Source: Tropicimonas sp. IMCC34043
GTDB lineage: Bacteria > Pseudomonadota > Alphaproteobacteria > Rhodobacterales > Rhodobacteraceae
Assembly (NCBI RefSeq): GCF_003390845.1
Contig: NZ_QMEK01000003.1
Coordinates: 248,001 to 312,000 of the forward strand
Direction of reading: 5' to 3'
Length of the DNA: 64,000 bases
Shown here: piece after piece, positions 20,939-52,264 of the stretch
Layout: every line of letters begins with the position of its first letter
Numbering within the stretch: the stretch's first letter is position 1
The notes under the pieces: model-generated
Told to the model about the DNA's origin: nothing
Database searches by the model: none
The model's input: the letters and a program-made list of their open reading frames with translations, nothing else
Program-made: the position numbers and the translations under genes

Positions 20939-20952
20939 AGGAGATTGAGAGC

Positions 20953-22152: not shown

Positions 22153-22167
22153 GAGGGAGAAGCGAGA

Positions 22168-26026: not shown

Positions 26027-26097
26027 CCGGGTCGCGGGTGCTGCCGGAGTGTCTCCGCCTGCCGGTGCAAGACGTGCCCCGGGGAGATGGCCGATGA
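26023..26097 (+). CDS. 24-codon mini-ORF bridging two operon genes
   Basis: An ATG overlaps the aldolase stop (ATGA), opens a 24-codon frame, and ends in a TGA that overlaps the ATG of the epimerase gene. Such an arrangement would carry ribosomes across the 67-base gap and keep translation coupled. The peptide (24 residues, Arg- and Pro-rich) resembles nothing I know. It may be only a coupling device or chance. Confidence 0.3.
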   Translation: MTGSRVLPECLRLPVQDVPRGDGR

Positions 26098-28051: not shown

Positions 28052-28075
28052 TCCGCCGTAATAGAGGAAACACAT

Positions 28076-29629: not shown

Positions 29630-29635
29630 CACATC

Positions 29636-29662
29636 GGGATGCGGCCGCAACGGCCGCATCCC
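29636..29662 (+). terminator. Strong hairpin after the binding-protein gene, likely 3' stabiliser or partial terminator
   Basis: A perfect 12-base stem (GGGATGCGGCCG paired with CGGCCGCATCCC) with a CAA loop begins 7 bases after the stop codon. No U tract follows. Hairpins at this point commonly protect the binding-protein mRNA and reduce expression of the downstream permease genes, giving the excess of receptor over permease that such importers need. Confidence 0.6.
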
Positions 29663-29721
29663 GCCCCTTCCTGCCGGGCGCTTGAGGGCGCACTGCAGGC
29701 CGAGCCAAAGGAACCTGTCGC

Positions 29722-31667: not shown

Positions 31668-31697
31668 GCATTCTTCCATCAACGCAAAGGAGACGAC

Positions 31698-33505: not shown

Positions 33506-34857
33506 AAGACATTTACGCCTACATCGATGCCCACGCTGACGAGTTTGTTGCGGATCTGCAGACACTTGTCCGGCAGCCATCGGTCTCGGCCCAGAACATC
33601 GGGTTGCGGGACTGTGCCGATCTCGTGCGCCGGATGATGCACGACGATGGCCTGCCGGCCGAGTTTTACGAACTCGAAGCCGGGCCGCCGGTGGTCTTTG
33701 GCACTTTGCCGTCGCCGGTCTCGAAAAAGACGCTGTTGTGCTATTCCCACTATGACGTGCAGCCACCCGAACCGGTGGAGGCCTGGAGCCATGGCGGGCC
33801 ATGGTCGGCTGCCATCGTCGATGGCGTGCTGTACGGACGTGGCGCCACCGACAACAAAAGCGGTGTTCTGGCCTTCAACAAGGCGGCCAAGGCGTTTCTT
33901 GCCGTGCGCGGCGAGGTCCCGGTAACCCTCAAGTTCCTGATCGAGGGCGAAGAGGAAATCGGCAGCCCCCATCTGGCCGCCTGGGCCGCGCAGAACACCT
34001 CGCTTCTGGCGGCAGACGGGATGCATTGCCTTGATGGTTCGCTGGAAATCGGCGCCGATGTGCCGGACGTCTCGCTGGGGCTGAAGTCGGTGCTGTTTGC
34101 GGAACTGATCGCGCGCGGCCCGCGCCAGGATGTCCACTCGCTGAACTTCCCGCTGGTGCCGAACCCGGTCTGGGACCTTGTGCATGCGCTCGCCACCATC
34201 ATGGACCGCGACCGCAACATCCTGATCGAGAACTGGGCCGAGGGCATCTATGTCCCGGACGCAGAGGACGACGGCTATCTGGCCGACAAGGCCGCGCGGA
34301 TCGACTTTGACATGCTGCGCGAGGAAATGGGCGTCGATCAGTTCGTCCTGGGCCGTGACGGTGTGGACGCCCTGCGCGCCCGCACCTACGAGCCCACGGC
34401 AAATATTCAGGGAATTGTCGCAGGGTATACCGGGCCGGGCACCAAGACCATCGTGCCGAAAGAGGCACGGGTTCGGATGGATTTCCGCCTGATCCCGAAT
34501 ATTCAGCCCGAGGCCGCCGCGGCCAGGCTGAAGGCGCATCTGAAGGACAAGGGCTTCGACAACATCGAGGTCCGGACCTTCGAGCATGCCGAACCGCCCT
34601 ACAAGATCTCGGCGCGCGAGGACATTTCGAAGTCCATCATCGCCGCGGCCCAGGAAGTTTATGGCGAGCCGCCCATCGTCAACGGGGTCTCCGCCGAGGG
34701 GGCCATCCTCAAGCACGTGTGGATCCCCTGCGTACTGACCGGATTTGCCAATCCCGGCTGCAATCTGCATGCACCCGACGAGAACATTCAGATCGAAAAG
34801 TACATCAAGGGGATCAAATACGCCGCGGCGATCATGGAGCATTTCGGCAAGGCCTGA
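33502..34857 (+). CDS. M20-family metallo-dipeptidase
   Basis: 451-aa zinc peptidase of the M20 (ArgE/DapE/carnosinase-like) family. Metal ligands are in CYSHYDVQPP (His, Asp), GATDNKSG (Asp), EGEEEIGSPH (catalytic Glu and ligand Glu), LDGSLE (Asp) and a C-terminal His in CNLHAPDEN. The length and the LCYSHYDVQP and NVSAEGA-like end blocks fit dipeptidases rather than allantoate amidohydrolases. It is the last gene of the rightward catabolic operon and probably releases amino acids from an imported peptide or conjugate. Confidence 0.9.
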   Translation: MKDIYAYIDAHADEFVADLQTLVRQPSVSAQNIGLRDCADLVRRMMHDDGLPAEFYELEAGPPVVFGTLPSPVSKKTLLCYSHYDVQPPEPVEAWSHGGPWSAAIVDGVLYGRGATDNKSGVLAFNKAAKAFLAVRGEVPVTLKFLIEGEEEIGSPHLAAWAAQNTSLLAADGMHCLDGSLEIGADVPDVSLGLKSVLFAELIARGPRQDVHSLNFPLVPNPVWDLVHALATIMDRDRNILIENWAEGIYVPDAEDDGYLADKAARIDFDMLREEMGVDQFVLGRDGVDALRARTYEPTANIQGIVAGYTGPGTKTIVPKEARVRMDFRLIPNIQPEAAAARLKAHLKDKGFDNIEVRTFEHAEPPYKISAREDISKSIIAAAQEVYGEPPIVNGVSAEGAILKHVWIPCVLTGFANPGCNLHAPDENIQIEKYIKGIKYAAAIMEHFGKA

Positions 34858-35670
34858 GACGCGCGTGCCGGTGCGACGATCGGTTGAACGCGCGCAATAT
34901 GAACGGACGCAATCCGGCGGACCTGTTGTGTTCCGAAAGGAGCGTTCCCGAACTTGGCTGTTCGCTTGCGTTGCACAGCAGCGAGAATGCGGTGTCGGCT
35001 TGGAAGCCTGTGCGACGGCGTATGGATGAGATTCTCGACCAGATTGGAGGCGATCTCGACGCGGCCGTCGGTCAGGACGGACTGCCGGCTGTCCCGGTGC
35101 CGTGGATGCAGGCCGGCTTTTCGCCAAGGCCGGACCCGGCCGATACCCGCGGGCGCTGCGGGCCGAGCCATGCGAGGATCAGGGGCGACGCTTGGGCCTT
35201 CCGGGCCGAGAGACGTTGGCCGACGGAGCGGCCGCGATTTTCGGCTTCGGCGTCTCGACCGACATCGGACCGAATACCCAGGCCTTTCCGATCGCCGACG
35301 AGGTATGTCCGGTCAGGATCCGCGCCAAGGGTGCCGACCCCTCGCGAAGACCGGCGGGGTCGGCACCGGCCTCCTGTTCCCGACCCCGCTGCAAGACTTC
35401 GGTACCGAACGGCTGCTCTGGGGCGCTAGTCGGCACCTCGATCCTTGGCGCAGTCGTCCCTTTGGCCTTGCGGATCGAGACAATCGGCAAGAACCTCGAC
35501 GATATCGGCGAATGACCGATTCCGGGCGGGCGGTTCACCATTGAACGGACGGAGGCTGATGGGCGGTCTCGGGGTCAGCCACGACATCCGCCGGACGGAA
35601 CGGGCCCGAAAGTGCCGGTTGAAGGGTCAGGATGGGCGTCCCGCGGCAGATCGCTCGGGATGCCCGAGGA
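34858..35670. other. 813-base stretch without a recognisable gene; possible decayed coding remnant
   Basis: Several medium open frames occur, none with a convincing start and family. Segments read like protein in different plus-strand frames: MDEILDQIGGDLDAAVGQDG (from 35022), then AAAIFGFGVSTDIGPNTQAF (near 35230), then SILGAVVPLALRIETIGKNL (near 35443) up to a stop at 35513-35515. Frame changes between them are what a frameshifted pseudogene would show, but GC-rich noise cannot be excluded. I see no IS ends or tRNA. Confidence 0.3.
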
Positions 35671-36660
35671 TCATTGGAGCGCGCGCGCGCGGTCCTTCCG
35701 GTCCTTCGTGTCGTCCTGACGATAGCGGAACGGCGCATCCGCAAGGCCGCGGATCGTCGAGAGCTCGGCAATGAACTGCTCTGCCGGAAGGATGGCGAGC
35801 AACGCGTCGATCCCCGCGTGCCCGGAGGCCTGCATCACGGGCGCACAGTCGGCTCCGATATGCCATGTCAGGGCTCCGGCGGCGTCCATGTCCTTGGCCA
35901 GCATGGCCTCGCGGGCGCCCCCGAGGGTAATCAACCCGTGTCCCGCTTCGAGGGATTCCAGCGGGCCGTGCAGGTAGTCACGGGTGCCGAACGCCATCGC
36001 CGGGACCCGGGCCGCCTCGCGCAGGAGCAGCGCGATCTCGCCGGCCACGCCGTGCAGTATGCCCGGTCCCACGACGTCGATCGAGCGGCAACCTGCCATC
36101 TGCCTCGCCTGATGCCGCGCCGGCCCAGCCGTTTCCGCGAGCGTTCGGCTTGCGAGCCCCGGCAGCCCGGCCCATTCCGGCCGGAGCGCCCCCGACGCCA
36201 GCTCGGCCAGAACCCCGGTCGCGACGGAGGTACAGACAAAGCTCGGCGCACTGGGGCTGCTCTCCAACGCGTTGCCGGTCTCGACGACCGCGTCGACGCG
36301 CTCCGCCAGCGGATTGGCAGCGGTCACCGACACCGCAATGGCAGGGGTGCCGTGCAGCCTGTCGGCGAGGTCCAGCGCCTCCACGCTCGCGCCGGAGGCC
36401 GACAGGATCACGACACGATCCGCCAGCCGGGTGCCGGTCTCGGCCATTTCCTCAAGGCTCAACGCATAGGCGACGATGCCCTGCGCGCGAAACTGGCGCG
36501 CCGCGACATGGGCCGAGTGGAGGCTGGCGCCGATGCCGGTAAAGGCGATGCGCTCGCCCTTCCAGGTCCCGACGCCGATGCGCCGCGCGGCGGTCTCGAC
36601 AAGCGGCAGGGCGGCGGCAATGCAGTCGGGGATCTTGTCGACGCTCTGGGTGAAGTTCAT
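35671..36660 (-). CDS. SIS-domain sugar isomerase/deglycase-like protein
   Basis: 329 aa with two sugar-isomerase (SIS) domains, like the isomerase half of GlmS and the AgaS/FrlB deglycases. SIS blocks include GIGASLHSAHVAARQF, VILSASGASVEALDLADR and FVCTSVATGVLAELA in domain 1, then YLHGPLESLEAGHGLI and IDALLAILPAEQFIAELS in domain 2. It has no N-terminal glutaminase. Such proteins isomerise, deaminate or deglycate phosphorylated amino sugars and ketosamines. It is co-oriented with the AraC gene and divergent from the TRAP/DIT1 operon. Confidence 0.85.
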   Translation of the reverse strand: MNFTQSVDKIPDCIAAALPLVETAARRIGVGTWKGERIAFTGIGASLHSAHVAARQFRAQGIVAYALSLEEMAETGTRLADRVVILSASGASVEALDLADRLHGTPAIAVSVTAANPLAERVDAVVETGNALESSPSAPSFVCTSVATGVLAELASGALRPEWAGLPGLASRTLAETAGPARHQARQMAGCRSIDVVGPGILHGVAGEIALLLREAARVPAMAFGTRDYLHGPLESLEAGHGLITLGGAREAMLAKDMDAAGALTWHIGADCAPVMQASGHAGIDALLAILPAEQFIAELSTIRGLADAPFRYRQDDTKDRKDRARALQ

Positions 36661-36737
36661 GATCTCTTGCTCCGTCTTGCTGTGATGGAGCGATCATGAC
36701 CGGCCGCGAGCCGCCGTTCTTGGACGTTTGTGCGCGG

Positions 36738-37556
36738 TCACAAGATTCCGGGACGGACGACGCGCTGATACTCCCGCGGGGTGATTCCGAGCGTGCGCCG
36801 GAACTCGCGGTTCATGTGGCTCTGATCCGAGAACCCGGCGTTCATCGCCGCGGAGGAGAGCGGAACGCCGGAAACGATCTCGGACTGGGCCGTCGCGACC
36901 ATGAGCTGCAGCCGCAGGCGCCTCGGCTGCAGCCCGATCATGTTGCGCAGAAGCCGGGAGAATTGGAACCGGCTGAGGTCAAGGTGCCCGGCCAGTTCCT
37001 CGATCCGCAACGGGCCCTCGCCCTGTTCGGTGGCCAGGCTCAGACGGTCGCGGAAGGCGTCCAGCGCCTCCAGCGGTGCGGTCTCGTCATCGCGGGTGAA
37101 GCCGCGCCGGGCGATGGTTGCAAGCAGCGCCGCGATGTCGTCGAGACCGACGTTTTCGGGCCGGGAAAGCAACTCCTCGCGGAGGCCGAGCATCATGTGA
37201 AAGATGATCTGGTCCCGGGAGATCGGTCCGCGAAGCTGAAGCGGCTGGTGCCCGTCGCCCAGTGCCATGCAGAGCCGTTGCCAGGTCGCCTCGCCGATGT
37301 TGATTACGAAGTAATGATTGCGCTCCCCGTACCAGGCGCTGGCATGGGCGTCGAATGCGTTGAACAGGGTTGTCGAGCCGGTGGGTTGCTCGTGCGCGTG
37401 GCCATCGCATTCGACCGTTGCATGACCGTCGAGCACCGCGCCGATGTTGTAGGTTGGATGGCAATGCATCGTCCCCGCCTCTGGCGGAGAGACGATGTCC
37501 AGGACGTCGATCATGTCGGCGATGCGCCAATGCGTGACAGCGCGATCAGTGGTCAT
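36738..37556 (-). CDS. AraC-family transcription regulator
   Basis: 272-aa regulator with an N-terminal cupin-like sensing domain (HCHPTYNIGAVLDGHATVE) and a C-terminal double helix-turn-helix. The first recognition region is IEELAGHLDLSRFQFSRLLR and the second is PLSSAAMNAGFSDQSHMNREF, ending in the family motif GITPREYQR. It is transcribed away from the TRAP operon and likely activates it; two matching 12-base direct repeats lie in the intergenic region. It may also control the SIS gene, which lies 77 bases downstream. Confidence 0.92.
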   Translation of the reverse strand: MTTDRAVTHWRIADMIDVLDIVSPPEAGTMHCHPTYNIGAVLDGHATVECDGHAHEQPTGSTTLFNAFDAHASAWYGERNHYFVINIGEATWQRLCMALGDGHQPLQLRGPISRDQIIFHMMLGLREELLSRPENVGLDDIAALLATIARRGFTRDDETAPLEALDAFRDRLSLATEQGEGPLRIEELAGHLDLSRFQFSRLLRNMIGLQPRRLRLQLMVATAQSEIVSGVPLSSAAMNAGFSDQSHMNREFRRTLGITPREYQRVVRPGIL

Positions 37557-37983
37557 GGCGGGGGCATTTCAGCAGGTTTCAGGGCATGTCTTTCGGGTCG
37601 ACCGCGAAATCTCTGCACGGCGCGGGGAAGATGGCAAGCCACCATTCCAGGATTGCATTTGTCCCTCTGGACGGTTGCCGTCGGTCGAGAAAGTTCAAAA
37701 ACGCCGGCCGGTCCGTCCCGTTCGCTGCTGTGCCTGCGCACTGCGGCGACCCGGCAGGCGGCCTTGTCGGGGGGCGGGATGCGTGCTGCCATCATGCCTG
37801 TTAGACGTTGGAAAACATGGATTTCGCTCTCCTTGCCCGGGATTGTGCGAGCTGTCGGGGGGCGTCCGCGCAGCCGGGTTTCACAAACGTTCAAGAACGC
37901 GGCTGATCCGGCATGATACTTTTGACGGACCCATTCGGATGCCGGGTCATCACCAAACAGAAAAACTCAGACAGGGAAACGAC
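37557..37983 (+). promoter_or_regulatory. Divergent control region with two direct repeats, candidate AraC sites
   Basis: This 427-base gap separates the AraC gene from the TRAP operon. GTTCAAAAACGC at 37693-37704 and GTTCAAGAACGC at 37889-37900 are direct repeats with one difference, 196 bases apart. The second overlaps a possible -35 (TTCAAG) that is 19 bases before GATACT at 37915-37920, which would suit class II activation; the spacing is long, so the promoter call is weak. GGGAAACG precedes the TRAP start. I see no small gene here. Confidence 0.45.
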
Positions 37984-38997
37984 ATGCTGAAAAACACCGC
38001 ATTTACTGCCTTTGCCGCAACGCTGGCCACCGCGGGTGCCGTCTCGGCACAGGATGCCGGGGCCGCCTGTTCTGCGGCGCTCGAGGCACCCGTTTCCTTC
38101 AGGATCTCGCACCAGAACTCGCCCACAAGCCCGATCCACCCGCATCTCGAGAAGATCGTCGCGGACGTGACCGCGGCGACCGACGGCAAGCTCGATCTGG
38201 CCGTCTTCCCCTCCGCGCAGCTTGGCGGCGAGATGCAGGCGCTGGAGCAGGCCGCCTTTGGCGAGAACGTCATCTTCTACATCACCGCCGGTGCTCTGGC
38301 GACGGCAGGTGTGCCCGAGCTGTCGATCCTGAACGGCCCGTTTCTGACGCCCACGCTCGAAAGCGCGCAGAAGCTCGAGAAATCCTCACTGATCGGCGGC
38401 TTCAAGGACCGGCTCGCGGAGAAGGCCGGGCTTCATGTGCTTGCGCTGAACTGGTTCGATGCGCCGCGCTCGATCCTCGGCCACCAGGGCTATCCGGAAC
38501 CGTCCGACCTCGTGGGGGTGAAGATGCGCGTGCCCGAGGCGCCGGCCTATCTGCGGACCTTCGAGACGCTGAAGACCGCGCCGCAGGCCATCCCCTTCTC
38601 CGAACTCTACCTCGCGCTGCAGCAGGGTGTTGTGGACGCCGCCGAGGGCGGAATCGACGGGATGGCCAACGCGAACCTGATGGAGGTTGCGAAGACCGTC
38701 ACGGTCACGGATCACTTCCGCGTCTTCTACGGTTTCGCGATGAGCGAGGAGCTCTATGCGAAGCTGCCCGAGCCCTGCCAGACACTCCTGAGCGACGAGT
38801 TTTCCGAGAAAGGTGACGCCTATTCCGCCGGCATGGACGAGATCACCATCAACCGGATCGCCGAACTCAAGACCGAGGGCGTGATCTTCGTCGAGGCCGA
38901 CAAGGACGCCTATCGCGTGGCAACCGAGCCCTTCTACAGCTTGTTCCCCGAATGGCCCGACGGGCTGCTCGCGGACGTGCGCGCAGCAATGCAGTGA
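37984..38997 (+). CDS. TRAP transporter solute receptor, DctP-like
   Basis: 337-aa periplasmic receptor with signal peptide (residues 1-22, cleavage near VSA-QD). DctP blocks are present: FRISHQNSPTSPIHPHLEK, AVFPSAQLGGEMQALEQ and LVGVKMRVPEAPAYLRTF. The Arg in KMRVPE is the usual carboxylate-clamping residue, so the ligand probably carries a carboxyl group. Known ligands of the family include C4-dicarboxylates, sugar acids and amino acids. It heads the operon with its two membrane partners. Confidence 0.93.
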   Translation: MLKNTAFTAFAATLATAGAVSAQDAGAACSAALEAPVSFRISHQNSPTSPIHPHLEKIVADVTAATDGKLDLAVFPSAQLGGEMQALEQAAFGENVIFYITAGALATAGVPELSILNGPFLTPTLESAQKLEKSSLIGGFKDRLAEKAGLHVLALNWFDAPRSILGHQGYPEPSDLVGVKMRVPEAPAYLRTFETLKTAPQAIPFSELYLALQQGVVDAAEGGIDGMANANLMEVAKTVTVTDHFRVFYGFAMSEELYAKLPEPCQTLLSDEFSEKGDAYSAGMDEITINRIAELKTEGVIFVEADKDAYRVATEPFYSLFPEWPDGLLADVRAAMQ

Positions 38998-39004
38998 GTC
39001 CGGA

Positions 39005-39484
39005 ATGGTCCGGTCTGTCCTTCGTTTCTGGAAGTTCCTGGACGAGACGCTACCAGCCCTGCTGGTAGCGTTCATCATCGTCATGGTCTCCGCAGATGTG
39101 GTGCTGCGCAACATGTTGGGCCGCACGGTGCCCTTCGGCATCGAGCTGTCGACCTATGCCTTTGTCTGGATGATCTTCCTGGCCTCTGCGGGCGCATCCC
39201 GCCGCAACCGGCATTTCCATGTGGATATTCTGCTCCAGCAACTCCCGCAGCGCGGCCGCCGCGCGCTGCAGGCGGTGCTCGACCTGGTCTGCGCCGTCAT
39301 CGCGCTGAAGATGACATCCATCGCATGGGACTACACGATGCGGAGCTGGAACCGGACCTCCGAAGGGCTGCAGATGCCGCTCGGATACTTCTACATGATC
39401 TTCCCCCTGAGCTTCGCGTTGATGGCGCTGTCGCATCTGCTGCGTGCCTCCCGCCTCGTTGTCAAAGGGGACGGCGATGAGTAA
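39005..39484 (+). CDS. TRAP transporter small membrane subunit, DctQ-like
   Basis: 159 aa with four predicted membrane spans: LPALLVAFIIVMVSADVVLR, STYAFVWMIFLASAG, VLDLVCAVIALKM and LGYFYMIFPLSFALMALSHL. This is the usual DctQ topology. The region AGASRRNRHFHVD is typical of DctQ. It overlaps the large subunit by 8 bases and lies 8 bases after the receptor. Confidence 0.93.
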   Translation: MVRSVLRFWKFLDETLPALLVAFIIVMVSADVVLRNMLGRTVPFGIELSTYAFVWMIFLASAGASRRNRHFHVDILLQQLPQRGRRALQAVLDLVCAVIALKMTSIAWDYTMRSWNRTSEGLQMPLGYFYMIFPLSFALMALSHLLRASRLVVKGDGDE

Positions 39485-40769
39485 TTTCCTGATCCTGGAC
39501 CTCGTCGGCATGGTGTTGGCGATGGTCATCGGGCTGAATGTGGTCTTCGCGGTTCTGGGCGCGGCGCTGATCTATTTCCTGTTCCATGCCGACACCTCGC
39601 CGCTGGTGATGATGCAGCAGATCCAGACCTCGCTGCGCAGCTTCCCGCTGCTGGCGATCCCGTTCTTCGTCTTCGCCGGAACGGTCATGGCACGCGGCGG
39701 GATCGCCGAGAGGATCATCTCTTTCGCGCAGGTGATGGTCGGCCACTGGCGCGGCGGGCTGGCGCAGGTGGCGGTGCTCAACAGCCTGATCATGGGCTCG
39801 ATGTCGGGCTCTGCCGTGGCGGATGCCGCGATCGACAGCCGGGTTCTGGTTCCGCAGATGCGGGCCAACGGCTATTCCCTGGGCTTTTCCAGCGCGATCT
39901 CGGCGGCCTCCGCAGTCATCGCTCCGGTGCTGCCGCCGTCGACCTCGCTGATCCTCTTCGGGCTCCTGGGCCAGGTCTCGGTGGCGCAGCTCTTTCTCGG
40001 TGGCGTGGTGCCCGCATTCGTGATTGCGCTCGCCCTGATGACCGCTGTCGCCATCATCGCACGGCGCCGGAATTACGGGTCGGTGCTGCTGCAACGTTCG
40101 AGCCGGTTCGAGCGGCTTGCCGCCCTCCGGCACTGCGCCTGGGCGCTGCTCATGCCGATCCTGCTGATCGTCGGCCTGCGCGCGGGGGTCTTCACGATCA
40201 CCGAGCTGTCGGTGATGGCGGCGCTCTACACGCTGGCGGTCAGCGCCTTCATCTACCGCTCGGTGGGATGGAAGGAACTGTGGCTGATCCTGAAGGAAAC
40301 CGCCGAGACGACAGCGACCGTGCTGATCATCATGGGGGCCTCCGCGTCCTTTTCCTACATCTTCGCAATCGAGCAGGTGCCGGTTCATGTGGTCTCGGCG
40401 CTGACCCGGATCAGTGACAATCCGCTCGTGATCCTGCTGCTCCTGAACGTCGCGCTGCTGATGCTCGGGATGCTGGTAGAGGGGGCCGCAATCATGATCC
40501 TCGCGGCGCCGGTGCTGGTCGGGATCGCGCGCGCCTTCGGGATCGACGAGGTCCACATGGGCGTCATCGTCGCGCTTAACCTCACGATCGGCACGCTGAC
40601 CCCTCCGGTCGGCATCGTGCTCTTCACCATCTGTTCGATCACCGGGTGCCGCGTCGGCGAGTTCCTCCGCGAGATGCTGCCCTTCTACTTCACCCTGGCC
40701 TGCGTGCTTCTGCTGCTCTCGGCGGTGCCCGCCATCGTGCTTACCCTTCCGCACTGGATGACTCCATGA
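39477..40769 (+). CDS. TRAP transporter large membrane subunit, DctM-like
   Basis: 430-aa Na+-coupled channel subunit with about 12 spans. Family motifs: IPFFVFAGTVMARGGIAERI, GSMSGSAVADAAIDSRVLVP, ISAASAVIAPVLPPSTSLIL and the closing LNLTIGTLTPPVGIVLF. Start at ATG 39477 overlaps the DctQ stop region; an in-frame ATG further upstream is shadow. Its stop overlaps the first DIT1-like gene by 4 bases, tying transport to that enzyme. Confidence 0.94.
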   Translation: MSNFLILDLVGMVLAMVIGLNVVFAVLGAALIYFLFHADTSPLVMMQQIQTSLRSFPLLAIPFFVFAGTVMARGGIAERIISFAQVMVGHWRGGLAQVAVLNSLIMGSMSGSAVADAAIDSRVLVPQMRANGYSLGFSSAISAASAVIAPVLPPSTSLILFGLLGQVSVAQLFLGGVVPAFVIALALMTAVAIIARRRNYGSVLLQRSSRFERLAALRHCAWALLMPILLIVGLRAGVFTITELSVMAALYTLAVSAFIYRSVGWKELWLILKETAETTATVLIIMGASASFSYIFAIEQVPVHVVSALTRISDNPLVILLLLNVALLMLGMLVEGAAIMILAAPVLVGIARAFGIDEVHMGVIVALNLTIGTLTPPVGIVLFTICSITGCRVGEFLREMLPFYFTLACVLLLLSAVPAIVLTLPHWMTP

Positions 40770-41887
40770 CCGAAAAGACGAGTCCGTACATCTTCCCGTT
40801 CCAGAGCTTCAGGCATCTGGACAGGATGACGGAGAACGCCACCTTCCTGCCGTCGCGAACGATCTCACCCGCAGAGCTGACGCCGTTGATCGAGCGCTTC
40901 GCGCCACCGCTCGATCTGCCCCCCGGCGGCAGCCTCGCCGAGCGCATCCTCGGCCTCTTTCTCCTGCCCGGCGTGCTGTTCGGAAAGCCCGAGTTCGTGA
41001 CCTCGCGGGCAGAGGCGTGGCTGGCGGCAATCGAGGACCGCCTGTCCACGGACCGGCCAGTCGAATTCACGATCCTCGGCTTTCCGTTCAAGATGCCCGT
41101 GCCGCTGAAGACCGACCGGCGCGCCGCGGATTTTGGCGAGGTCGTGGGCCTGTGCCGCCTGAACCGGATCGGAGAGGCAATCGCTGCGCATCACCTTCCG
41201 GGCGCGCGTGTGCATCTGCTGAGCGAGGGGCCGTTTCACGAGCTGAACGGCCTTTCACGGGACTGGGCGGATGCCTATTTCGCATCGCTGGGCCACGTCG
41301 TGGATCTCTTCGGGATCGGCACGCATCTGGCGCTGCATGACCTCAACGTGGTGCTCGACGAAGAGCCGGATTTCCGCCCCGCCTGGACCGCAGCGACCGA
41401 GGATATCCGCAGGCGCCGGGACGCCGGCGATCCAAGGACGCTCGACGCCATCCGCGACGCGCTTCCCGTGCGCTTCCACAACATCGCCAACCCCGGTGTT
41501 CCCGACGAGGAGCTGTGCCGGGCCTATCGCGGCGACGTGGAGGCCGCCGACCTGCGCGCCTCCATTGCCGCGCGTGCCGAGGAGGGGGTGCTGGCCTATC
41601 GCGGCTTCCTCGAGGCCCGCGACAGGATCGGCCTGCTGGACCGGCTGGTTCCGGGCGGGCTTTCGATGACCGTTTCCCCGCGTCCCGGACGGCTGGGGGT
41701 GCGCCCGCTTCCCCTGCCGGCCGACAAGCTGCCCTATCACGGGGTCCCGGTGATCGGGGCGAAGGGGCAGACGCTGCGGATCGACTACCTCTGGGACCTG
41801 AAACGCGGCGGCGGCCGCTTCGAGCCGCTGCGCATCGGGGCGGACACGGATCCCGCTCCCTTCCTGTATCGTGAGGTTCGCGGGTGA
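40766..41887 (+). CDS. DIT1/PvcA-like (isonitrile synthase superfamily) protein, copy 1
   Basis: 373 aa. By eye it matches the DIT1/PvcA/IsnA family, which builds isonitriles from an amino acid amine and ribulose 5-phosphate. Shared blocks are PVEFTILGFPFKMPVPLKT at residues 98-116 (family: IEF-x-LPAFPFKSPN), DFGE at 122-125 (PDxxE), PGARVHLLSEG at 145-155 (PGARxxxxSDG) and a late MTVSPRPGRLGV then PYHGVPV (LSIHP...KIG, PWHGV). It is longer than PvcA (about 330 aa) and diverged, so activity may differ. It overlaps the TRAP gene before it and the ROK gene after it by 4 bases each. No PvcB-type dioxygenase is present. Confidence 0.7.
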   Translation: MTEKTSPYIFPFQSFRHLDRMTENATFLPSRTISPAELTPLIERFAPPLDLPPGGSLAERILGLFLLPGVLFGKPEFVTSRAEAWLAAIEDRLSTDRPVEFTILGFPFKMPVPLKTDRRAADFGEVVGLCRLNRIGEAIAAHHLPGARVHLLSEGPFHELNGLSRDWADAYFASLGHVVDLFGIGTHLALHDLNVVLDEEPDFRPAWTAATEDIRRRRDAGDPRTLDAIRDALPVRFHNIANPGVPDEELCRAYRGDVEAADLRASIAARAEEGVLAYRGFLEARDRIGLLDRLVPGGLSMTVSPRPGRLGVRPLPLPADKLPYHGVPVIGAKGQTLRIDYLWDLKRGGGRFEPLRIGADTDPAPFLYREVRG

Positions 41888-42738
41888 CGGGCACGACAAT
41901 CGCCTTCGATTTCGGGGGCACTAAGATCGACATCTGCCGCATGAAGCCGACCGGCGAGTTGCTCGGCCGCGAGGTCGTGGCCACCGCCAGCCTGATGCCG
42001 GGCGAACCGGCGTTCCTAGGGCGGGCCATGGCGCTTCTCGACAGCAAGGTCGGGCCAGGCGATATCCGCATCGGGCTGAGCTGGAATGCCCCGGTGCACG
42101 AGGGGCGGCTGCAACAGAGCTCGCTGCTCGGCGGGCCCATCGAGGTCGATCTGGGGGCGCTGCTGCGCGACAGGTTTCCGGGCCACGAGATCTGTGTCGA
42201 AAGCGACGTTCACGCCATGGCTCTGGGTGAATACCGCTTCGGTCTGGGGCCGGCCGCAAGCCCTCTGCTGCTGATCAACCTCGGGTCCGGCGCGGGTTTG
42301 GCCTATCACGACGGCACGCTCATGCGCGGCTTCACCGGAGGTGCGGGGCTCGTCAGCCAGGAGTTGCGCCGCGTCCCGGAGATCGGCGAAACCGTGGTGC
42401 TGGACCACCTTCTTTCGGGCCGCGGCCTTGCCCGGATTTACCGGGGCCTGACCGGGCAGGAGCTCAACGGTGCACAGATCGCGGCGCGGGTCTCCGACGA
42501 TCCCGACGCGGCCCGTGTCTTCGACATCTTCGCGGCGCATCTCGGGATCTATCTGATCACGGTCTGCCGCATGTTCGACCCGCGCACCGTCGTGCTGTCC
42601 GGCTCGGTTGCCAAGGCCGCGCCGCTGTTTCTGGACGAGGCCCTGCGGGTCATGTCCGGGCAACTGGAGCCGGCATGCGCGCCCGAAAGGATCTGCCTCA
42701 GCGCGCTCGAGGCGGCCGCCTGCCGCGGGCTCGCCTGA
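41884..42738 (+). CDS. ROK-family sugar kinase-like protein without zinc motif
   Basis: 284 aa. N-terminal phosphate-binding block AFDFGGTKID, second glycine loop LINLGSGAGLAYHDGTLM, and catalytic Asp in ESDVHAMALGEYRFG (family ENDANAAALGE). The usual zinc site (HxxxxxxxxxCxCGxxGC) is absent; the corresponding region reads GGAGLVSQELRRVPEIGE. Family members phosphorylate hexoses or amino sugars. Start GTG 41884 overlaps the previous stop. Being between two DIT1-like genes, it probably supplies or handles their sugar-phosphate partner (inference). Confidence 0.8.
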   Translation: MTGTTIAFDFGGTKIDICRMKPTGELLGREVVATASLMPGEPAFLGRAMALLDSKVGPGDIRIGLSWNAPVHEGRLQQSSLLGGPIEVDLGALLRDRFPGHEICVESDVHAMALGEYRFGLGPAASPLLLINLGSGAGLAYHDGTLMRGFTGGAGLVSQELRRVPEIGETVVLDHLLSGRGLARIYRGLTGQELNGAQIAARVSDDPDAARVFDIFAAHLGIYLITVCRMFDPRTVVLSGSVAKAAPLFLDEALRVMSGQLEPACAPERICLSALEAAACRGLA

Positions 42739-42779
42739 CCGCTCTCCTATCCTCTTCTCTGAACAGAAAGGTCTTTCCC

Positions 42780-43895
42780 ATGTCCGGCGAGACAAGCGCC
42801 TATGTTTTCCCCTTCCGCCCGTTCCGCAATCTCGACAGGAGCATACCCGTGGCCCGTATCCGGGATGGCGGGACCTGCGGCCTTGCCGCGTTCGAGCCGC
42901 AGCTCGGGATGCTCGCTCCCGAGCTCGGCATGCCGCCCAGCGGCGAGAGCTGGCAGGAGCGGCTGATCGGACTCTGCTGCGACCCGCAAACCGTCTTCGG
43001 CCGTCCCGAGTGGATCCGGGATCTTGCCGCGCATTGGATCGGCATGGCCGAGCCCTTCGTGGCGGCAAAAAGGCCCATCGAGTTCACCATCCTCGGCTTT
43101 CCCTTCAAGGCGCCGGTGCCGCTCAAGACGCGCCGGAAGCTGCCGGACTTCGGCGAGCTTGTGATGCTGCGCCGCCTGCATGAGTTCGCCCTCGGTGTCG
43201 GGCGCTTCCATGCGCCCGGCGCGCGGATTCACATCTTCGCCGAAGGCGCCTTCGCCCGGGTCAACGGCATGCCACAGTCGGACTCTGACGCCTATTTCGA
43301 TGCGCTCGTGGCGCTTTCCGAGGCGGCCGGGTTCGGGGAGACACTGGTGCTGCACGAGACCTCGCGCATTGCCGACGAGACGCCGGGCTTCCTCGGTGTC
43401 TGGGAGGAGATGGCGGAGGAAATTCGGGCGCGGGCGAAGGCCGGGGACGAGAAGACGGTGACCGCGCTGCGCGAGGCGCGCCCGGTGACCTTCCATCTCT
43501 GCGCCAATCCCGGGGTCTCGGAGGAGCAGCTCCGGCTGGCCTATCTCGGCGACCCGGCCGCAGCGGAGCTGCGCGCCGATCTCGAACGCCGCAGCGACGA
43601 GGGCGTGATCCGCTACCGGGCGTTTCTCGAGGCGCGGGACAAGGTGCGCCTTCTGGAGGACTTCGCGCCGGGGGCGCTCGGGCTGACGGTCTCGCCGCGT
43701 CCGGGGCGGATCGGTGTCCGCCCCCTGCCGGAACCCGCAAACGTGCTGCCCTATCACGGTGTCCCGGTGTGGAACGAGGCGGAGAAGCAGCTCCGCATCG
43801 AATATCGCTGGGACCTGATCACCACCGACCGCGAGTGGACGGGCCTCTATCTCGAAGGCGACAGTGATCGGGAGCCGTTCCTGCTGCTGGAGTGA
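42780..43895 (+). CDS. DIT1/PvcA-like (isonitrile synthase superfamily) protein, copy 2
   Basis: 371-aa paralogue of 40766-41887, collinear over its length. Corresponding blocks: PIEFTILGFPFKAPVPLKT at 99-117, LPDFGE at 121-126, PGARIHIFAEG at 146-156, then DEGVIRYRAFLEARDK, LTVSPRPGRIGV and LPYHGVPV. Both copies share the N-terminal start S-x-Y-(I/V)-FPF-x-(S/P)-FR. Start ATG 42780 lies 41 bases after the ROK stop with GAACAGAAAGG upstream. Two diverged copies in one operon suggest a heteromer or two successive or alternative substrates. Confidence 0.7.
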   Translation: MSGETSAYVFPFRPFRNLDRSIPVARIRDGGTCGLAAFEPQLGMLAPELGMPPSGESWQERLIGLCCDPQTVFGRPEWIRDLAAHWIGMAEPFVAAKRPIEFTILGFPFKAPVPLKTRRKLPDFGELVMLRRLHEFALGVGRFHAPGARIHIFAEGAFARVNGMPQSDSDAYFDALVALSEAAGFGETLVLHETSRIADETPGFLGVWEEMAEEIRARAKAGDEKTVTALREARPVTFHLCANPGVSEEQLRLAYLGDPAAAELRADLERRSDEGVIRYRAFLEARDKVRLLEDFAPGALGLTVSPRPGRIGVRPLPEPANVLPYHGVPVWNEAEKQLRIEYRWDLITTDREWTGLYLEGDSDREPFLLLE

Positions 43896-44547
43896 CCGGC
43901 GCCCCGATACCCGCCGGGCCGGCTGTCGTGCCGGCCGGCATACCGGCTACAACCGCCTGACGCTGCCCTACCGCAAGGGGCAGCGCTCGGATCGCGGTCG
44001 CTCACAGTCGCGCCCACTCCGCTCGACGACGGCCTGAAACAGGCGCGTCGCGCCAAGCCCCGAGTCGATTGGCAGCGGGACGGCGAAGTCTGTGCATCGC
44101 CGCAGATCGTGGATTTCAAGGTCCGTCACACGGCCAATGAACCGGGCGATTGCTTCAAGGCTGCTCTCAGCCCCGGCCGCGTCGTTCGCGGAAAATCCAA
44201 CGCGGTGTGGCACCAACAGACCGAGCGCGAAATGGGCCGGTCGGCGGTGGTGATGCAAATGGGACCGTTGGGGTTCACCCCCTCGGGCAGGGCCTCCTCG
44301 TCCCCCTCGGCGCGCCTCTGGCGCAACGCCGAAGGGCACCTCGCCGCCACAGAGTTACCACCGAGCATCGACAGGGGGACTCAAGGGGGCTGGGCAAAAT
44401 GCCCAGCCTGGCTAATGGATTAATAAAGCGTCTTTTTCTGGAAGCTATGGTGCCCCGCGTGTTCCACGGCCTGGCAGGTCCATTGTTGTGACACGGCCCT
44501 TGTTCCTGCTTGAATTCTCGCCAAGTTGCCCGGTACTCATTCTGCCG
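43896..44547. other. 652-base gap between DIT1 operon and cas3; hairpins, no clear gene
   Basis: A 7-base GC hairpin (GGCCGGC/GCCGGCC) at 43917-43936 just after the DIT1-like stop may end that operon, but lacks a U tract. Open frames on both strands in 43968-44423 have no recognisable family. A second strong hairpin, GGCTGGGCA/TGCCCAGCC with an AAA loop, lies at 44388-44408. The following AT-rich GGCTAATGGATTAATAAAGC may hold the cas3 promoter; I cannot assign its boxes. A GTG at 44488 in the cas3 frame would extend Cas3 by 20 residues. Confidence 0.4.
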
Positions 44548-47022
44548 ATGGAGAAAACAATATCTCGTTGGCCGGGCAAGAGTGTGCCGCCGGAAGGCGG
44601 TCCTGAGCATCCGGCGATCTATCACATGCTCGATGTCGCTGCGGTCGCCGAACGACTGATCGGTCCGTTCGGATGGGATGCGGCGTTGCAGGACGCGCTG
44701 GTCCTGCTGGCCGCTCTGCACGATCTGGGCAAGATCGGCGAAGGTTTTCGGGCAATGTTGCGCGAAGGGAAGGCGCAGCCCGCAGGTCTTCACTGGGAAG
44801 TTACCGAAGCCCTGTTGCGCCATCACGATACGCTGATCGCCGAGAGGCTCGGATCGACGGAGCGCTATCGGCTGAGGCTTTATGCGGCCACGGCCGGGCA
44901 TCACGGTCGCCCGCCAACGCGCGATGTGGTTCAGTTGCGCCGGTCCCTGGACAGCGCGGGGCAGGAGGCGCTGGCCGACAGCGCCAGGACAATCGAGGCG
45001 TTCCTTGCCCTCTGGCCGAAGGCATCCCTCGACGGGCTCGACCGCGAAGGCGCGCTTGCGCTGAGTTGGTGGCTTCCTGGTCTGGTCTCCGCCGCCGATT
45101 GGGTCGGCTCCAATTCGGCGTGGTTTCCGCCCTGTGATCCGACTGTCCCGATCGCGGCCTATCTGGAACGCGCCCGGGACAAGGCGGGCATGGCGGTCGA
45201 ATTGGCGGGTCTGACTGTCCCTGCGCCGAGCGGCGGAAAGCTGTTCGACTTCGACCTGCGCCCGATGCAGGCGGCCTGTGCGGAGGTGCCATTGCCCGAT
45301 GGCCCCATGCTGGCGGTCATCGAGGATGAAACCGGCGTCGGCAAGACCGAGGCCGCGCTGATCCTGGCGCAGCGGATGATGGCCGCGGGCAAGGGACGGG
45401 GGCTGTTCTTTGCCCTGCCCACCATGGCTACGGCAAATGCGATGTTTGCCCGCGCGCAAGAGGTCGTGTCGCGCATGTTCGCGGGGCCGCACAGCCTGGT
45501 GCTGGCACATGGCAGGGCACGCCTGTCCGGGCCGTTCCGCACGCTCGTGGCACGGCAGAGCGCGGGCACCGACGAACCGGTCTGTACCGAATGGCTTGCC
45601 GATAACCGCCGTCGGGCGCTGCTGGCCAATGTCGGGGTGGGGACGGTGGATCAGGCGTTGCTCTCGATCCTGCCGACCAAATTCTCGACATTGCGCCACT
45701 TCGGCCTGTCCTCGAAGATTCTGATCGTCGACGAGGTGCATGAACTGGGCGAGCCCTACATGGCGGCCGAGCTGGCGCAGCTTTTGCGGGCGCATCGCAT
45801 GGCCGGCGGTTCGGCGATCCTGCTGACGGCGACCTTGCCGATGGCGCAACGCAAGACGCTGCTTGCGGCCTACGATCACGCCGACAGCGGGGACGCGGCC
45901 TATCCGGCGCTGACGCTGAGCCATGGGCAGGTGCGGCGGGAGTTTCCACAACAAACAGGCGCGCGTGGGCAGGTATCGGTCCACCGCCTTCCGGATCCCG
46001 AGGCCGCCGTTGCCTTGCTGGCCGAACGGGCGGGGCAGGGGGCGGCCTGCCTTTGGGTGCGCAATGCCGTGGACGATGCAATTGCCGGGGTCGAGGCGCT
46101 GCGGGCCGCGGGGGTCGAGGCCGATCTGCTGCACGCCCGCTTTGCGCTCTGCGACCGGCTGCGGCACGAAACGGCGGCGCTGGAGCGCTTCGGCAAGGCG
46201 CGGGAGCCGCGTCCGGGGCGGGTGCTGGTGGCAACGCAGGTGGTGGAATCCTCGCTGGATCTCGATTTCGACGTGATGGTCTCCGATCTCGCGCCGATGG
46301 CCGCACTGATCCAGCGCGCCGGCCGGCTCTGGCGGCATATGGACCGGCGTCCGGCGGCGATGCGGGCGGTGCCAGCGCCGCTGCTGCATGTCGTGTCGCC
46401 GGACCCCGACAGCGTGGAGGACGACCAGTGGCTGCACCGGGTGCTGGACCGGGGCGCCTGGGTCTATCCGCTCGACCTGCAATGGCGCACGGCGCGGGTG
46501 CTGTTCGGGATCGGGCGGATCGAGGCGCCATCGGGGCTGCGCGCGCTGATCGAGGCGGTGCATGGCGCTGATGCCGAGCCGGTGCCCGGCCTGCTGGAAA
46601 CGGCAGAGACGGAACGGATCGGCAAGGGGTACTCGGCGGCCAACCAGGCGTGGCGCAATGTGGTGGTGCTGGAGGACGGATACCGAATGGGCGGCGCCGG
46701 GGCCGAGGACACGAAATACCCGACCCGGCTGGGCAGGCCGCAGAAGACGCTGCTGCTCGCCCGGTGGCAGGCGGGGCGGCTTGTGCCCCACGCCGGGACC
46801 GAGGCCGGGGACATGGAGGATGCCTGGCAGCTTTCCGAAGTGCAGGCCGCCGAACACCGGCTTCAGGGGCTGGACCTGCCGGATCAGGCGGCGCCCGAGG
46901 TGGCCGCGATGACGGCAGGCTGGCCGGAGTGGCGGCGGGCGGCGGTGCATGTCTGCCCGATGGCGCCGGACGGGGAGATTTGCACGGGGCTGCGCTACGA
47001 TCCCGAGAGGGGGCTGTTGTAA
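44548..47022 (+). CDS. cas3: Cas3 helicase-nuclease, type I-E
   Basis: 824 aa. Cas3 is recruited by target-bound Cascade and nicks, unwinds and degrades DNA. HD nuclease: H26 in YHMLDVAAVA, H58-D59 and K62 in LHDLGK, and further His in AGHHGRPP. Helicase: Walker A ETGVGKT with K266, DEVH at 395-398, LTATLP (motif III), QVVESSLDLDFD and QRAGRLWRH (motif VI). All catalytic residues I can check are present. ATG 44548 gives the I-E N terminus with WPGKS near residue 8; GTG 44488 is an alternative. A long antisense open frame here is only a GC-rich shadow. Confidence 0.95.
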   Translation: MEKTISRWPGKSVPPEGGPEHPAIYHMLDVAAVAERLIGPFGWDAALQDALVLLAALHDLGKIGEGFRAMLREGKAQPAGLHWEVTEALLRHHDTLIAERLGSTERYRLRLYAATAGHHGRPPTRDVVQLRRSLDSAGQEALADSARTIEAFLALWPKASLDGLDREGALALSWWLPGLVSAADWVGSNSAWFPPCDPTVPIAAYLERARDKAGMAVELAGLTVPAPSGGKLFDFDLRPMQAACAEVPLPDGPMLAVIEDETGVGKTEAALILAQRMMAAGKGRGLFFALPTMATANAMFARAQEVVSRMFAGPHSLVLAHGRARLSGPFRTLVARQSAGTDEPVCTEWLADNRRRALLANVGVGTVDQALLSILPTKFSTLRHFGLSSKILIVDEVHELGEPYMAAELAQLLRAHRMAGGSAILLTATLPMAQRKTLLAAYDHADSGDAAYPALTLSHGQVRREFPQQTGARGQVSVHRLPDPEAAVALLAERAGQGAACLWVRNAVDDAIAGVEALRAAGVEADLLHARFALCDRLRHETAALERFGKAREPRPGRVLVATQVVESSLDLDFDVMVSDLAPMAALIQRAGRLWRHMDRRPAAMRAVPAPLLHVVSPDPDSVEDDQWLHRVLDRGAWVYPLDLQWRTARVLFGIGRIEAPSGLRALIEAVHGADAEPVPGLLETAETERIGKGYSAANQAWRNVVVLEDGYRMGGAGAEDTKYPTRLGRPQKTLLLARWQAGRLVPHAGTEAGDMEDAWQLSEVQAAEHRLQGLDLPDQAAPEVAAMTAGWPEWRRAAVHVCPMAPDGEICTGLRYDPERGLL

Positions 47023-47057
47023 CGGCCTATTTGTGATAACGACAAGTAATCAAAGTT

Positions 47058-47140
47058 TTGTTTCCCGCGCCTGTGGGGATGGCCCGTGCTTTGTGGAAAG
47101 GGTTGCGAAAGACTGTTCCCCGCCAAGCGGGGATGATTAA
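47058..47140 (+). ncRNA. Degenerate mini-CRISPR between cas3 and cse1 (CreR/CreA-like guide RNA candidate)
   Basis: Two repeat-like units flank a short spacer. Unit 1 (47058-47086) matches the array repeat at 21 of 29 positions and keeps the 6-base stem through G-T wobbles. Unit 2 (47113-47140) begins CTGTTCCCCGC and has GCGGGGATGA as in the true repeat, with a 3-base loop instead of 4. The spacer (47087-47112, starting TGCTTTGTGGAAAG) is 26 bases, against 32 in the array. Cas6e could plausibly cut both units. The spacer start matches a site directly downstream with an AAG PAM. Known CreR/CreA RNAs have this repeat-spacer-repeat form and redirect Cascade to repress promoters in cas loci. Expression is inferred, not shown; its promoter is unclear and it may be co-transcribed with cas3. 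Confidence 0.7.
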
Positions 47141-47173
47141 GTGCTTGGTGGAAAGAGATGCGTAGTATCTCTT
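47139..47173 (+). promoter_or_regulatory. Predicted Cascade target with AAG PAM for the mini-CRISPR spacer
   Basis: AAG at 47139-47141 is followed by TGCTTGGTGGAAAG (47142-47155). It equals the mini-CRISPR spacer start at 13 of 14 positions; the single difference is position 6, which is flipped out and not read in type I-E guides. Beyond position 14 the match becomes patchy. Seed-only matching with a good PAM is what a repression site, as opposed to a cleavage target, should look like. A tandem duplication of the roughly 55-base unit would also create this similarity. Confidence 0.6.
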
Positions 47174-47186
47174 TCCACCTTTTTAT
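47148..47186 (+). terminator. Intrinsic terminator after the mini-CRISPR
   Basis: A perfect 12-base stem, GTGGAAAGAGAT (47148-47159) with ATCTCTTTCCAC (47167-47178), has a 7-base loop GCGTAGT and is followed by CTTTTTAT. It would end transcripts that come from cas3 or from the mini-CRISPR, so cse1 and the genes after it need their own promoter downstream. Confidence 0.85.
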
Positions 47187-47214
47187 AGACAGGCCTTGGC
47201 GCTGATGTTATCAA
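47186..47214 (+). promoter_or_regulatory. Candidate promoter for the mini-ORF and cse1 operon
   Basis: TAGACA at 47186-47191 (5 of 6 to TTGACA), a 17-base spacer and TATCAA at 47209-47214 (4 of 6 to TATAAT) lie directly after the terminator. The predicted Cascade site ends about 13 bases upstream, close enough to interfere with polymerase binding. The match is modest. Confidence 0.4.
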
Positions 47215-47218
47215 ATGA

Positions 47219-47252
47219 AAGCAGCGGACTCGGTTTCCCGAATCCGCTGCTT
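47219..47252. repeat. Stable hairpin in the cas3-cse1 intergenic RNA
   Basis: AAGCAGCGGA pairs with TCCGCTGCTT, and an inner TCGG pairs with CCGA around a TTTC loop. If transcription starts near 47221 this would form the 5' end of the RNA. No U tract follows, so it is not an obvious terminator on the plus strand. Confidence 0.55.
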
Positions 47253-47311
47253 GAAAGTACAAAGTTTAACGCAGCCGTTGGCGCGGCTTCATATGAGCGG
47301 AGGTTAAGAAG

Positions 47312-47332
47312 ATGCAGACCTTAAGAGTCTGA
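47312..47332 (+). CDS. Six-codon mini-ORF with strong ribosome binding site and rare codons (CreT-like candidate)
   Basis: ATG CAG ACC TTA AGA GTC TGA encodes MQTLRV. GGAGG at 47299-47303 lies 8 bases upstream, stronger than most sites in the window. It contains consecutive TTA and AGA, both codons that are scarce in the surrounding high-GC genes. Known CreT toxin RNAs are tiny ORFs with a strong site and rare Arg codons that trap a scarce tRNA. A regulatory leader peptide for cse1 is the other possibility. Confidence 0.4.
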   Translation: MQTLRV

Positions 47333-47339
47333 TCCTTGT

Positions 47340-47373
47340 CGCGCCCAGATTCATTTATGCGGAACTGGGCGCG
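47340..47373 (+). promoter_or_regulatory. Hairpin in the cse1 5' leader
   Basis: CGCGCCCAG (47340-47348) pairs with CTGGGCGCG (47365-47373), with a 16-base loop, beginning 7 bases after the mini-ORF stop and 38 bases before the cse1 start. Translation of the mini-ORF could influence its folding. No U tract follows. Confidence 0.45.
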
Positions 47374-47411
47374 CAAGGCAATAGAGCTAAATTTGCAAAA
47401 GGATATTGCCG

Positions 47412-48886
47412 GTGCCCCTTAATCTCATTTCCGATCCTTGGATTCCCGTCCTCACACGCGATGGCCACCGGCGCATTATCGCGCCTTGGGAAATCGCCGA
47501 CCCGGATCTTTTGCGTCCGGACTGGCCGCGCGCCGATCTCAACCTCGCCTGTCTTGAACTGCTGATCGGGTTGGTCTTTCTCGCCGACCCGCCGGCCCAT
47601 GACGAGGACTGGGAGGACCGGCAGGCGCCCGATCCTGCACGCCTGCGCGCCCGGCTGTCGCCGCTGGCGCCGGCCTTCGAGCTGACCGGCGAGGGGCCAC
47701 GCTTCCTGCAGGATCTGGCGCCGCTCGAGGGCGCGCCCAACCCGCCCGATATGCTGTTCATCGACAGCGCCGGCGGCAATACGGCGAAAAACAATGCCGA
47801 CCTGATGGTGCGCCGCGGCCGATACCCGGTGCTCGACCCGGCGATGGCGGCGATGGCGCTTTATACCTTCCAGGCCTTCGCACCGTCTGGCGGAGCCGGC
47901 AACCGCACTTCGATGCGGGGTGGCGGGCCGCTGGTGACCCTCGTGGCCCCGCAACAGGCGCTTTGGCCGATCGTCTGGGCGAACGTTCCCTACGGCCGGC
48001 CGGCCGGCACCGAGACCCTGCCCTGGATGCGCGCCACGGTGACCTCCGAAAAGGGCCAGCAGGTCTTTCCCGAACAAAGCCACCCGGCGGAGGCGTTCTT
48101 TGGTATGCCGCGCCGGCTGCGACTGGTGGAGACGGCGGGCGCGATCACCGGTGTGATCCAGCGGCCCTATGGCACCAATTATGCGGGCTGGGACCACCCG
48201 CTTTCGCCCTACTACCGGCAGAAGGTGACCGACGAGTGGCTGCCGCGTCACCCCCGGCCCGGGCTTTTCGGCTACCGCCACTGGCTGGGCATCGTCGCCG
48301 CGCTGCCGAACGAGGCAGAGGGCTTACGGCGGCGGGCCGGAATGGTGCGCGAGTGGGAAAATCGCCAGTCGAAGCTGCAGGTGCGGCTGATCGTCGGCGG
48401 CTGGGCGATGGACAACATGAAGCCCAGGGATTTCATCCTGTCCACGCCGCCATTCGTTGCCCTCGATGGCGAGGCGACGCTGATCCTGTCAGGGCTGGTC
48501 GAGGCCGCGGACCGCTTGTCGCTGGCGCTGCGCGGCGCGTTGAAGCCGGTGCTTGCCGAGGGCGAGGAGCGCGAGGCCGTTCGGGAGGCGTTTTATGCCG
48601 ACACCCAGGCACCGTTCGAGGCCCGCGTGGTGCAGTTGCAGAAGGGCGTGGCGGCGAGCGATGTCGCGCGGGGCTGGCTCGACGACATGCGGCAGGTCGC
48701 CATTCCCATTTTCGAGGGCCGAGCCCTGCCAGGGCTCGCCGACCGTGACCCAAAGGTGCAGCAGCAGATCGTTCAGGCCCATCGCGGGTTGCTTGCCGCC
48801 TTCGCCGGGCACGGGAAGGTGGGGGGCGACGCCTTTGAGGCGCTGCGCCTTACGCCGGCGCCGAAGCAGAAGGAGGAGGTTGCGGA

Positions 48887-48890
<4 letters not shown>
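47412..48890 (+). CDS. cse1: Cse1 (CasA/Cas8e), large subunit of type I-E Cascade
   Basis: 492 aa. Cse1 recognises the PAM and recruits Cas3. N terminus NLISDPWIPVLTRDG is the family hallmark, and the zinc-finger-free middle contains GGRYP-like VRRGRYPVLDPAMAAMALYTFQ, followed by SMRGGGPLVTLV and a C-terminal four-helix bundle. Start GTG 47412 was preferred to TTG 47406 because AAAGGA at 47398-47403 is then 8 bases away. It overlaps cse2 by 4 bases. It is separated from cas3 by the 389-base regulatory region described here. Confidence 0.93.

Positions 48891-52264
<3,374 letters not shown>

Follow-up and report, generated by a model that had tools for sequence, protein, structure and literature searches.

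A conserved gene cassette of DIT1/PvcA-type proteins and a ROK kinase with a proposed role in sugar-amine catabolism

The 64,000-nucleotide stretch of DNA analysed here (the window; contig NZ_QMEK01000003.1 of Tropicimonas sp. IMCC34043, positions 248,001 to 312,000) contains a divergent gene cluster in which two proteins of the DIT1/PvcA superfamily, DIT1a (40766..41887, plus strand) and DIT1b (42780..43895, plus strand), flank a sugar kinase of the ROK family (41884..42738, plus strand). These three genes follow those for a tripartite ATP-independent periplasmic (TRAP) transporter, giving the order DctPQM-DIT1a-ROK-DIT1b on the plus strand, and a SIS-domain protein and an AraC-family regulator are encoded on the minus strand. 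PvcA, the best-matching structure of the fold, links the nitrogen of an amino acid with a carbon atom of ribulose 5-phosphate (PMC7949033). The cluster considered here probably serves, if by a narrow balance of the evidence, as a regulon that imports and breaks down a sugar-amine conjugate bearing a carboxylate; this could be a glycated amino acid of the Amadori or Heyns type, or some other N-substituted aminosugar acid.

The DIT1/PvcA-type proteins and their partner genes

A preliminary description of this DNA had recognised two DIT1/PvcA-type proteins, and it was borne out in coordinates, reading frames and motifs alike. Both proteins exceed the 26.4-bit cut-off of the PF05141 (DIT1_PvcA) profile and lie inside the superfamily (DIT1a 40.5 bits, E 3e-10; DIT1b 54.4 bits, E 1.8e-14), the matches covering the N-terminal half of the profile. 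They share 47% identity over 371 aa and are the only PF05141 matches in the whole 4.6 Mb genome. A phmmer search of the Protein Data Bank with DIT1b returned PvcA (3e59; E 2e-10) and two further isonitrile synthase sequences, across residues 90-333. Structure prediction, which the same description had proposed, gave a concordant picture. An AlphaFold2 model of DIT1b built from six sequences (predicted template modelling score 0.83) is closest to PvcA 3e59 (Z 22.3 over 280 residues, root-mean-square deviation 3.2) and to PIsnA (Z 20.8/20.7), with Foldseek in agreement, and both stand far above the next-best fold, tyrosyl-tRNA synthetase (TyrRS; Z 10.7). Chance similarity to PvcA was rejected because fold and profile concur. 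The likeness of the PvcA fold to TyrRS (Z about 10.7) is in itself a hint of such an ancestry for the amino-acid site.

Judged by their sequences, DIT1a and DIT1b are members of a distinct clade of the superfamily and not PvcA orthologues. The L-tyrosine isonitrile synthase equivalog NF045653 scores them at 22.9 and 27.4 bits, below its 600-bit cut-off. The DIT1 proteins of the two cassette types described below, of which those of type II are approximately 30% identical to DIT1b, form one clade (support 98/96) to which neither PvcA nor a group similar to other isocyanide synthases belongs; the deeper branching order is uncertain because the branches are long. Residues were compared between 12 family members and four PvcA-like sequences only (DIT1b numbering). 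The family retains Phe107, Pro108, Lys110, Lys116, Asp123, Glu126, Tyr172, Pro324, His326 and Gly327, whereas the PvcA-invariant Arg301, His305 (here Ser), Lys310 (Arg or Asn) and Trp325 (Tyr) are substituted in all 12, and the position of PvcA Asp155 is occupied by Glu. Since some PvcA residues are kept and others are replaced, the DIT1 family probably consists of enzymes with an altered chemistry or substrate.

The partners that had been proposed for these proteins, a ROK kinase, a SIS-domain protein and a TRAP transporter, are all supported by Pfam. The kinase (PF00480, 71.5 bits) begins with a GTG that overlaps the DIT1a stop codon, just as the DIT1a start overlaps the dctM stop. ROK proteins of the cassette keep the P-loop GGTK and the catalytic Asp, and alignment of all 10 showed neither the ExGH sugar-binding motif nor the CxCGxxGC zinc motif; the lack of ExGH would be compatible with a sugar substituted near C1/C2. 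The importer comprises the solute-binding protein DctP (37984..38997, plus strand; PF03480, 166 bits), in which the arginine of MRVPEAP is conserved, the small permease DctQ (39005..39484, plus strand; PF04290, 104 bits) and the large permease DctM (39477..40769, plus strand; PF06808, 349 bits). Upstream, an AraC-family regulator with a cupin-like sensor domain (36738..37556, minus strand; PF12833, PF02311) has orthologues in the same place in four other loci. The SIS-domain protein (35671..36660, minus strand; PF01380, 36.2 bits) is a predicted phosphosugar isomerase/deaminase. It had been likened to the deglycase FrlB. The SIS domain is confirmed, but the nearest relationship is to NagB-II and not specifically to FrlB: its best matches are NagB-II and GlmS models (NF046059 NagB-II, 40 bits; phmmer to the glucosamine 6-phosphate deaminases 8eol/3hba), and FrlB is not among them. 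The NagB-II-like SIS proteins of type I and the PF01182/TIGR00502-like enzymes of type II all score below equivalog cut-offs.

The PvcB oxygenase had been reported as absent, and no PvcB-type gene occurs in the translated neighbourhood, the rest of the genome not having been searched for PvcB. An adjacent oxygenase of the PvcB/TauD family is common, not universal, for L-tyrosine isonitrile synthases, and one adjoins PvcA in two control loci (L028, L029). No open reading frame for a NagA deacetylase lies between 31.7 and 44.5 kb of the window, and an Rfam scan of 35400-44600 gave no match.

Operator-like sites and the distribution of the cassette

An operator-like 15-mer precedes both dctP and the SIS gene. 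Before dctP it reads CACAAACGTTCAAGA (37882..37896, plus strand; about 88 bp upstream), and 58 bp before the SIS start codon it reads CACAAACGTCCAAGA (36718..36732, minus strand), in the same place as in Consotaella and Microvirga. Its 13-base core, CACAAAYRTTCAA, occurs in all five loci of the same architecture (type I) within dctP spacers that are otherwise poorly alignable and have little in common beyond a TCACAAAC(A/G)TTCAA-like sequence. The site before the SIS gene takes the form CACAAACRTNCAAGA in the window, Consotaella and Microvirga and is weaker in Agrobacterium (2 mismatches), while Devosia has only the dctP site and no SIS gene there; the pair is repeated in three other genomes. 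Allowing up to one mismatch, the core has exactly two matches in the whole 4.6 Mb genome, those before dctP and SIS, against 0 for a reversed-pattern control. From these shared sites, unique in the genome, we infer that the 15-mer is a putative operator for AraC and that the cluster forms a two-promoter regulon. A scan for sigma-70 promoters gave no result above chance.

Besides that of the window, type I cassettes were found in Consotaella salsifontis (L005; complete, with 66-87% identity per protein), on a megaplasmid of Microvirga lotononidis (L014; likewise complete), in Devosia crocina (L006; without an adjacent SIS gene) and on a conjugative plasmid of Agrobacterium (L015; SIS present, a single DIT1). 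Behind the Microvirga cassette stands an Entner-Doudoroff set fed by hexose-6-phosphate (zwf, pgl, edd, eda, hexR, pgi), in which pgl and hexR narrowly miss their cut-offs. Five further loci, of type II (L021, L026, L027, L045, L046), encode a polar-amino-acid solute-binding protein, permease and ATPase, followed by DIT1, ROK and a protein of the NagB family (PF01182); ROK and NagB are separated by a GntR gene in L027, L045, L046 and probably also L026. Their NagB proteins keep the equivalents of Asp72 and His143 of E. coli NagB. Across both architectures DIT1 adjoins ROK (10 of 10 loci), and a relative of the aminosugar-6-phosphate isomerases/deaminases, either a SIS protein like NagB-II/GlmS or NagB, is present in nine of the 10. 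DIT1-ROK, shared by the two types, is therefore the constant pair, around which the transporter varies in class and the aminosugar-phosphate enzyme in fold. The triplet DIT1-ROK-DIT1, for which a neighbourhood survey had been suggested, recurs in four genomes but is not universal, six loci having a single DIT1 beside ROK.

The cassette is rare, being present in one of the 390 genomes sampled of the host's order, with one strong match in 385 genomes sampled of the class. The order sampled around genome G1037 gave four strong matches in 297 genomes, two of them already among the known loci. A contig scan gave two loci only, a consequence of its reliance on two short peptide patterns. Viral contigs held no relative. 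Distant PF05141 proteins in other contexts (L008, L018, L019, L044/L047) were excluded as members. A divergent PF05141-like protein below the cut-off, which adjoins a PxpB-like subunit of 5-oxoprolinase in a different genome of this class (L031:1192-2037), possibly represents a further non-isonitrile branch.

On the Agrobacterium plasmid (p_JBx_073812; L015:1-22103) the cassette is flanked on one side by an argH-MmgE/PrpD-amino acid ABC-GntR-asparaginase block and on the other by a second SIS/ROK-regulator/amino acid ABC/BadF-kinase block, an arrangement that recalls an opine or Amadori catabolic island. A broken remnant of the cassette ROK gene lies on a Sinorhizobium medicae plasmid (L023:8001-8394), with no other cassette gene within 8 kb, and the remnant is found in four S. 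medicae plasmids among the matches listed. Elsewhere in the window, an unrelated type I-E CRISPR-Cas operon stands directly downstream of the cassette (44488-51834; Cas3 and Cse1 by Pfam, with further cas-like reading frames). A separate catabolic-looking cluster at 19400-35000 encodes an M32 peptidase, an aminotransferase, an AstE/AspA-type deacylase, a DHDPS-family protein, an epimerase, Gfo/Idh oxidoreductases, a dipeptide-type ABC transporter, an SDR and an M20 peptidase, several assigned by Pfam and the rest by reading the open reading frames.

A proposed catabolic role and its alternatives

The protein families, the fold, the conserved gene order, the shared operator-like sites and the partner swaps are direct observations, and the catabolic assignment is well supported by them. 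From them we infer the substrate, the order of steps, phosphorylation at C6, the reaction of DIT1 and the binding of AraC. The TRAP importer, or in type II the polar-amino-acid ABC importer, would take up the conjugate, and the ROK kinase would phosphorylate its sugar, with C6 the likeliest position. The phosphorylated adduct may then be the target of one or two DIT1 proteins, working at its nitrogen-sugar linkage in the place that NagA has in the series NagK-NagA-NagB, before the SIS or NagB-type enzyme gives fructose-6-phosphate or glucose-6-phosphate for central metabolism; AraC would switch both promoters. The exchange of TRAP for the amino acid ABC importer, and of SIS for NagB-I, keeps to one theme, a charged substrate and an aminosugar phosphate. 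The ribulose 5-phosphate carbon used by PvcA is C2, and C2 imines of ketose phosphates are intermediates in NagB chemistry. Since PvcA joins nitrogen to this sugar phosphate and NagB proceeds through such imines, it would be chemically coherent for DIT1 to act where N joins C2 in an adduct of hexose-6-phosphate. It is possible, although we hold this with some doubt, that one branch of the DIT1/PvcA fold is catabolic and breaks or rearranges the N-sugar bond of 6-phosphorylated amino acid-hexose adducts, a form of enzymatic deglycation by a relative of the isonitrile synthases, feeding hexose-6-phosphate to central metabolism. Catabolism of phosphorylated sugar-amines had been suggested at the outset, and has gained strong contextual support from the two-promoter regulon that includes SIS, the amino acid ABC and NagB-I swaps and the Microvirga Entner-Doudoroff genes. 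The specific link then drawn to Amadori compounds and FrlB may hold, but the 6-phosphates of C2-amino-sugars (Heyns compounds or N-substituted glucosamine) are indicated no less strongly by the isomerase/deaminase partners. A plain dicarboxylate TRAP operon was rejected, as it leaves the kinase, the SIS protein and the amino acid ABC swap unexplained.

Several points weigh against the catabolic scheme. Its substrate and the DIT1 reaction are themselves deduced; a kinase and a SIS deglycase suffice for Amadori compounds in fra, which leaves the need for DIT1 unexplained; in D. crocina a SIS gene is missing next to the cassette, and the nearest SIS protein that it encodes elsewhere has just 31% identity; Agrobacterium carries a single DIT1; and Entner-Doudoroff genes stand beside one locus only. 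Moreover, the known chemistry of the fold is synthetic, yielding isonitriles or, with yeast Dit1, formyl-tyrosine (PMC7345447). This suits an alternative that enlarges on a suggestion made early on, an isonitrile from an imported acid: DIT1a and DIT1b would combine an amino acid taken up by the importer and a ketose phosphate from ROK and SIS/NagB, and the product, an isonitrile or an N-formyl compound, might serve as a metal ligand. The shared fold (Z 22.3) and the retained Lys110, Lys116, Asp123, Glu126 and His326 suit it, and the kinase and isomerase could provide the sugar phosphate. Such synthesis is nevertheless disfavoured as a weaker alternative and appears unlikely, given the substitution of Arg301, His305, Lys310 and Trp325 in every member compared and of Asp155 by Glu, and given that PvcB/TauD is not beside the cassette yet is present in two PvcA control loci. 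No exporter or non-ribosomal peptide synthetase was seen, and the two importer types and Entner-Doudoroff genes suit catabolism.

The remaining alternatives keep the pathway catabolic and change the part played by DIT1. These proteins might epimerise or isomerise a sugar-amine phosphate, in a role like that of FrlC, the epimerase of E. coli frl, leaving SIS/NagB alone to break the C-N bond. An extra sugar-modifying enzyme is indeed found in frl (FrlC) and not in fra (PMC4072780). Two DIT1 copies could likewise mean two isomerisation steps, but the NagB-type swap is compatible with this idea rather than specific to it. As we know of no isomerase activity in the PvcA fold, we regard this role as improbable. 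It is also rather doubtful that the compound broken down is a sugar acid or aminosugar acid free of any amino-acid conjugate (sialic-acid-like or hexosaminic acid), with DIT1 as an aldolase or lyase. That the TRAP solute-binding protein is related to sialic-acid and other TRAP binders, that ROK scores to NanK/NagK models and that the type II GntR scores best as NanR would all agree with such a substrate; the type II importer is, however, of the polar-amino-acid ABC class, and the PvcA fold resembles TyrRS, an amino-acid-binding fold.

Significance and relation to known systems

The novelty of the cassette lies in how its parts, each of a known kind, are combined and in what the fold is used for; no published account of this gene combination was found in the open-access literature. 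To our knowledge, PvcA-type enzymes are known only as makers of isonitriles (or, in yeast, of formyl-tyrosine), and the papers found agree. If the conserved, tightly regulated catabolic setting is true, the PvcA fold would handle sugar-amine adducts more generally, which bears on the mechanism of PvcA, and a new route to break down glycated amino acids may exist. The Agrobacterium DIT1 is annotated as 'L-tyrosine/L-tryptophan isonitrile synthase family protein', a label that could lead the mining of genomes for natural products astray.

The isonitrile synthases PvcA/IsnA (3e59, 9dh4, 9dhm) share with DIT1 the fold and Lys110, Lys116, Asp123, Glu126, Tyr172 and His-Gly (326-327). They differ in that DIT1 is 18-23% identical to them by structure, forms a separate supported clade, has about 50 extra N-terminal residues and is paired with a ROK kinase and importer, without a PvcB partner beside it. 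The frl/fra systems (FrlBCD, FraBDAE) resemble the cassette in uniting a transporter, a sugar kinase and a SIS enzyme in one regulated locus, here with a putative shared operator. Their kinases belong to a family other than ROK; the cassette has a ROK kinase, AraC control, a SIS protein nearer NagB-II than FrlB, and one or two DIT1 proteins, of which frl/fra have none. In Salmonella fra, a kinase and a SIS deglycase accompany a transporter of the dicarboxylate type, so that a carboxylate-type transporter is common to fra and the cassette (PMC4072780). With the N-acetylglucosamine pathway NagK-NagA-NagB, including its NagB-II variants, the cassette shares a ROK kinase and a relative, of either fold, of glucosamine 6-phosphate deaminase; it differs in having DIT1 in the place of NagA, an importer for a charged substrate and a ROK protein without the ExGH and zinc motifs. 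The sialic acid TRAP-nan system, finally, likewise joins a TRAP importer to a ROK kinase, but where it has NanA and NanE, neither of which was seen in the cassette, the latter has DIT1 and SIS instead.

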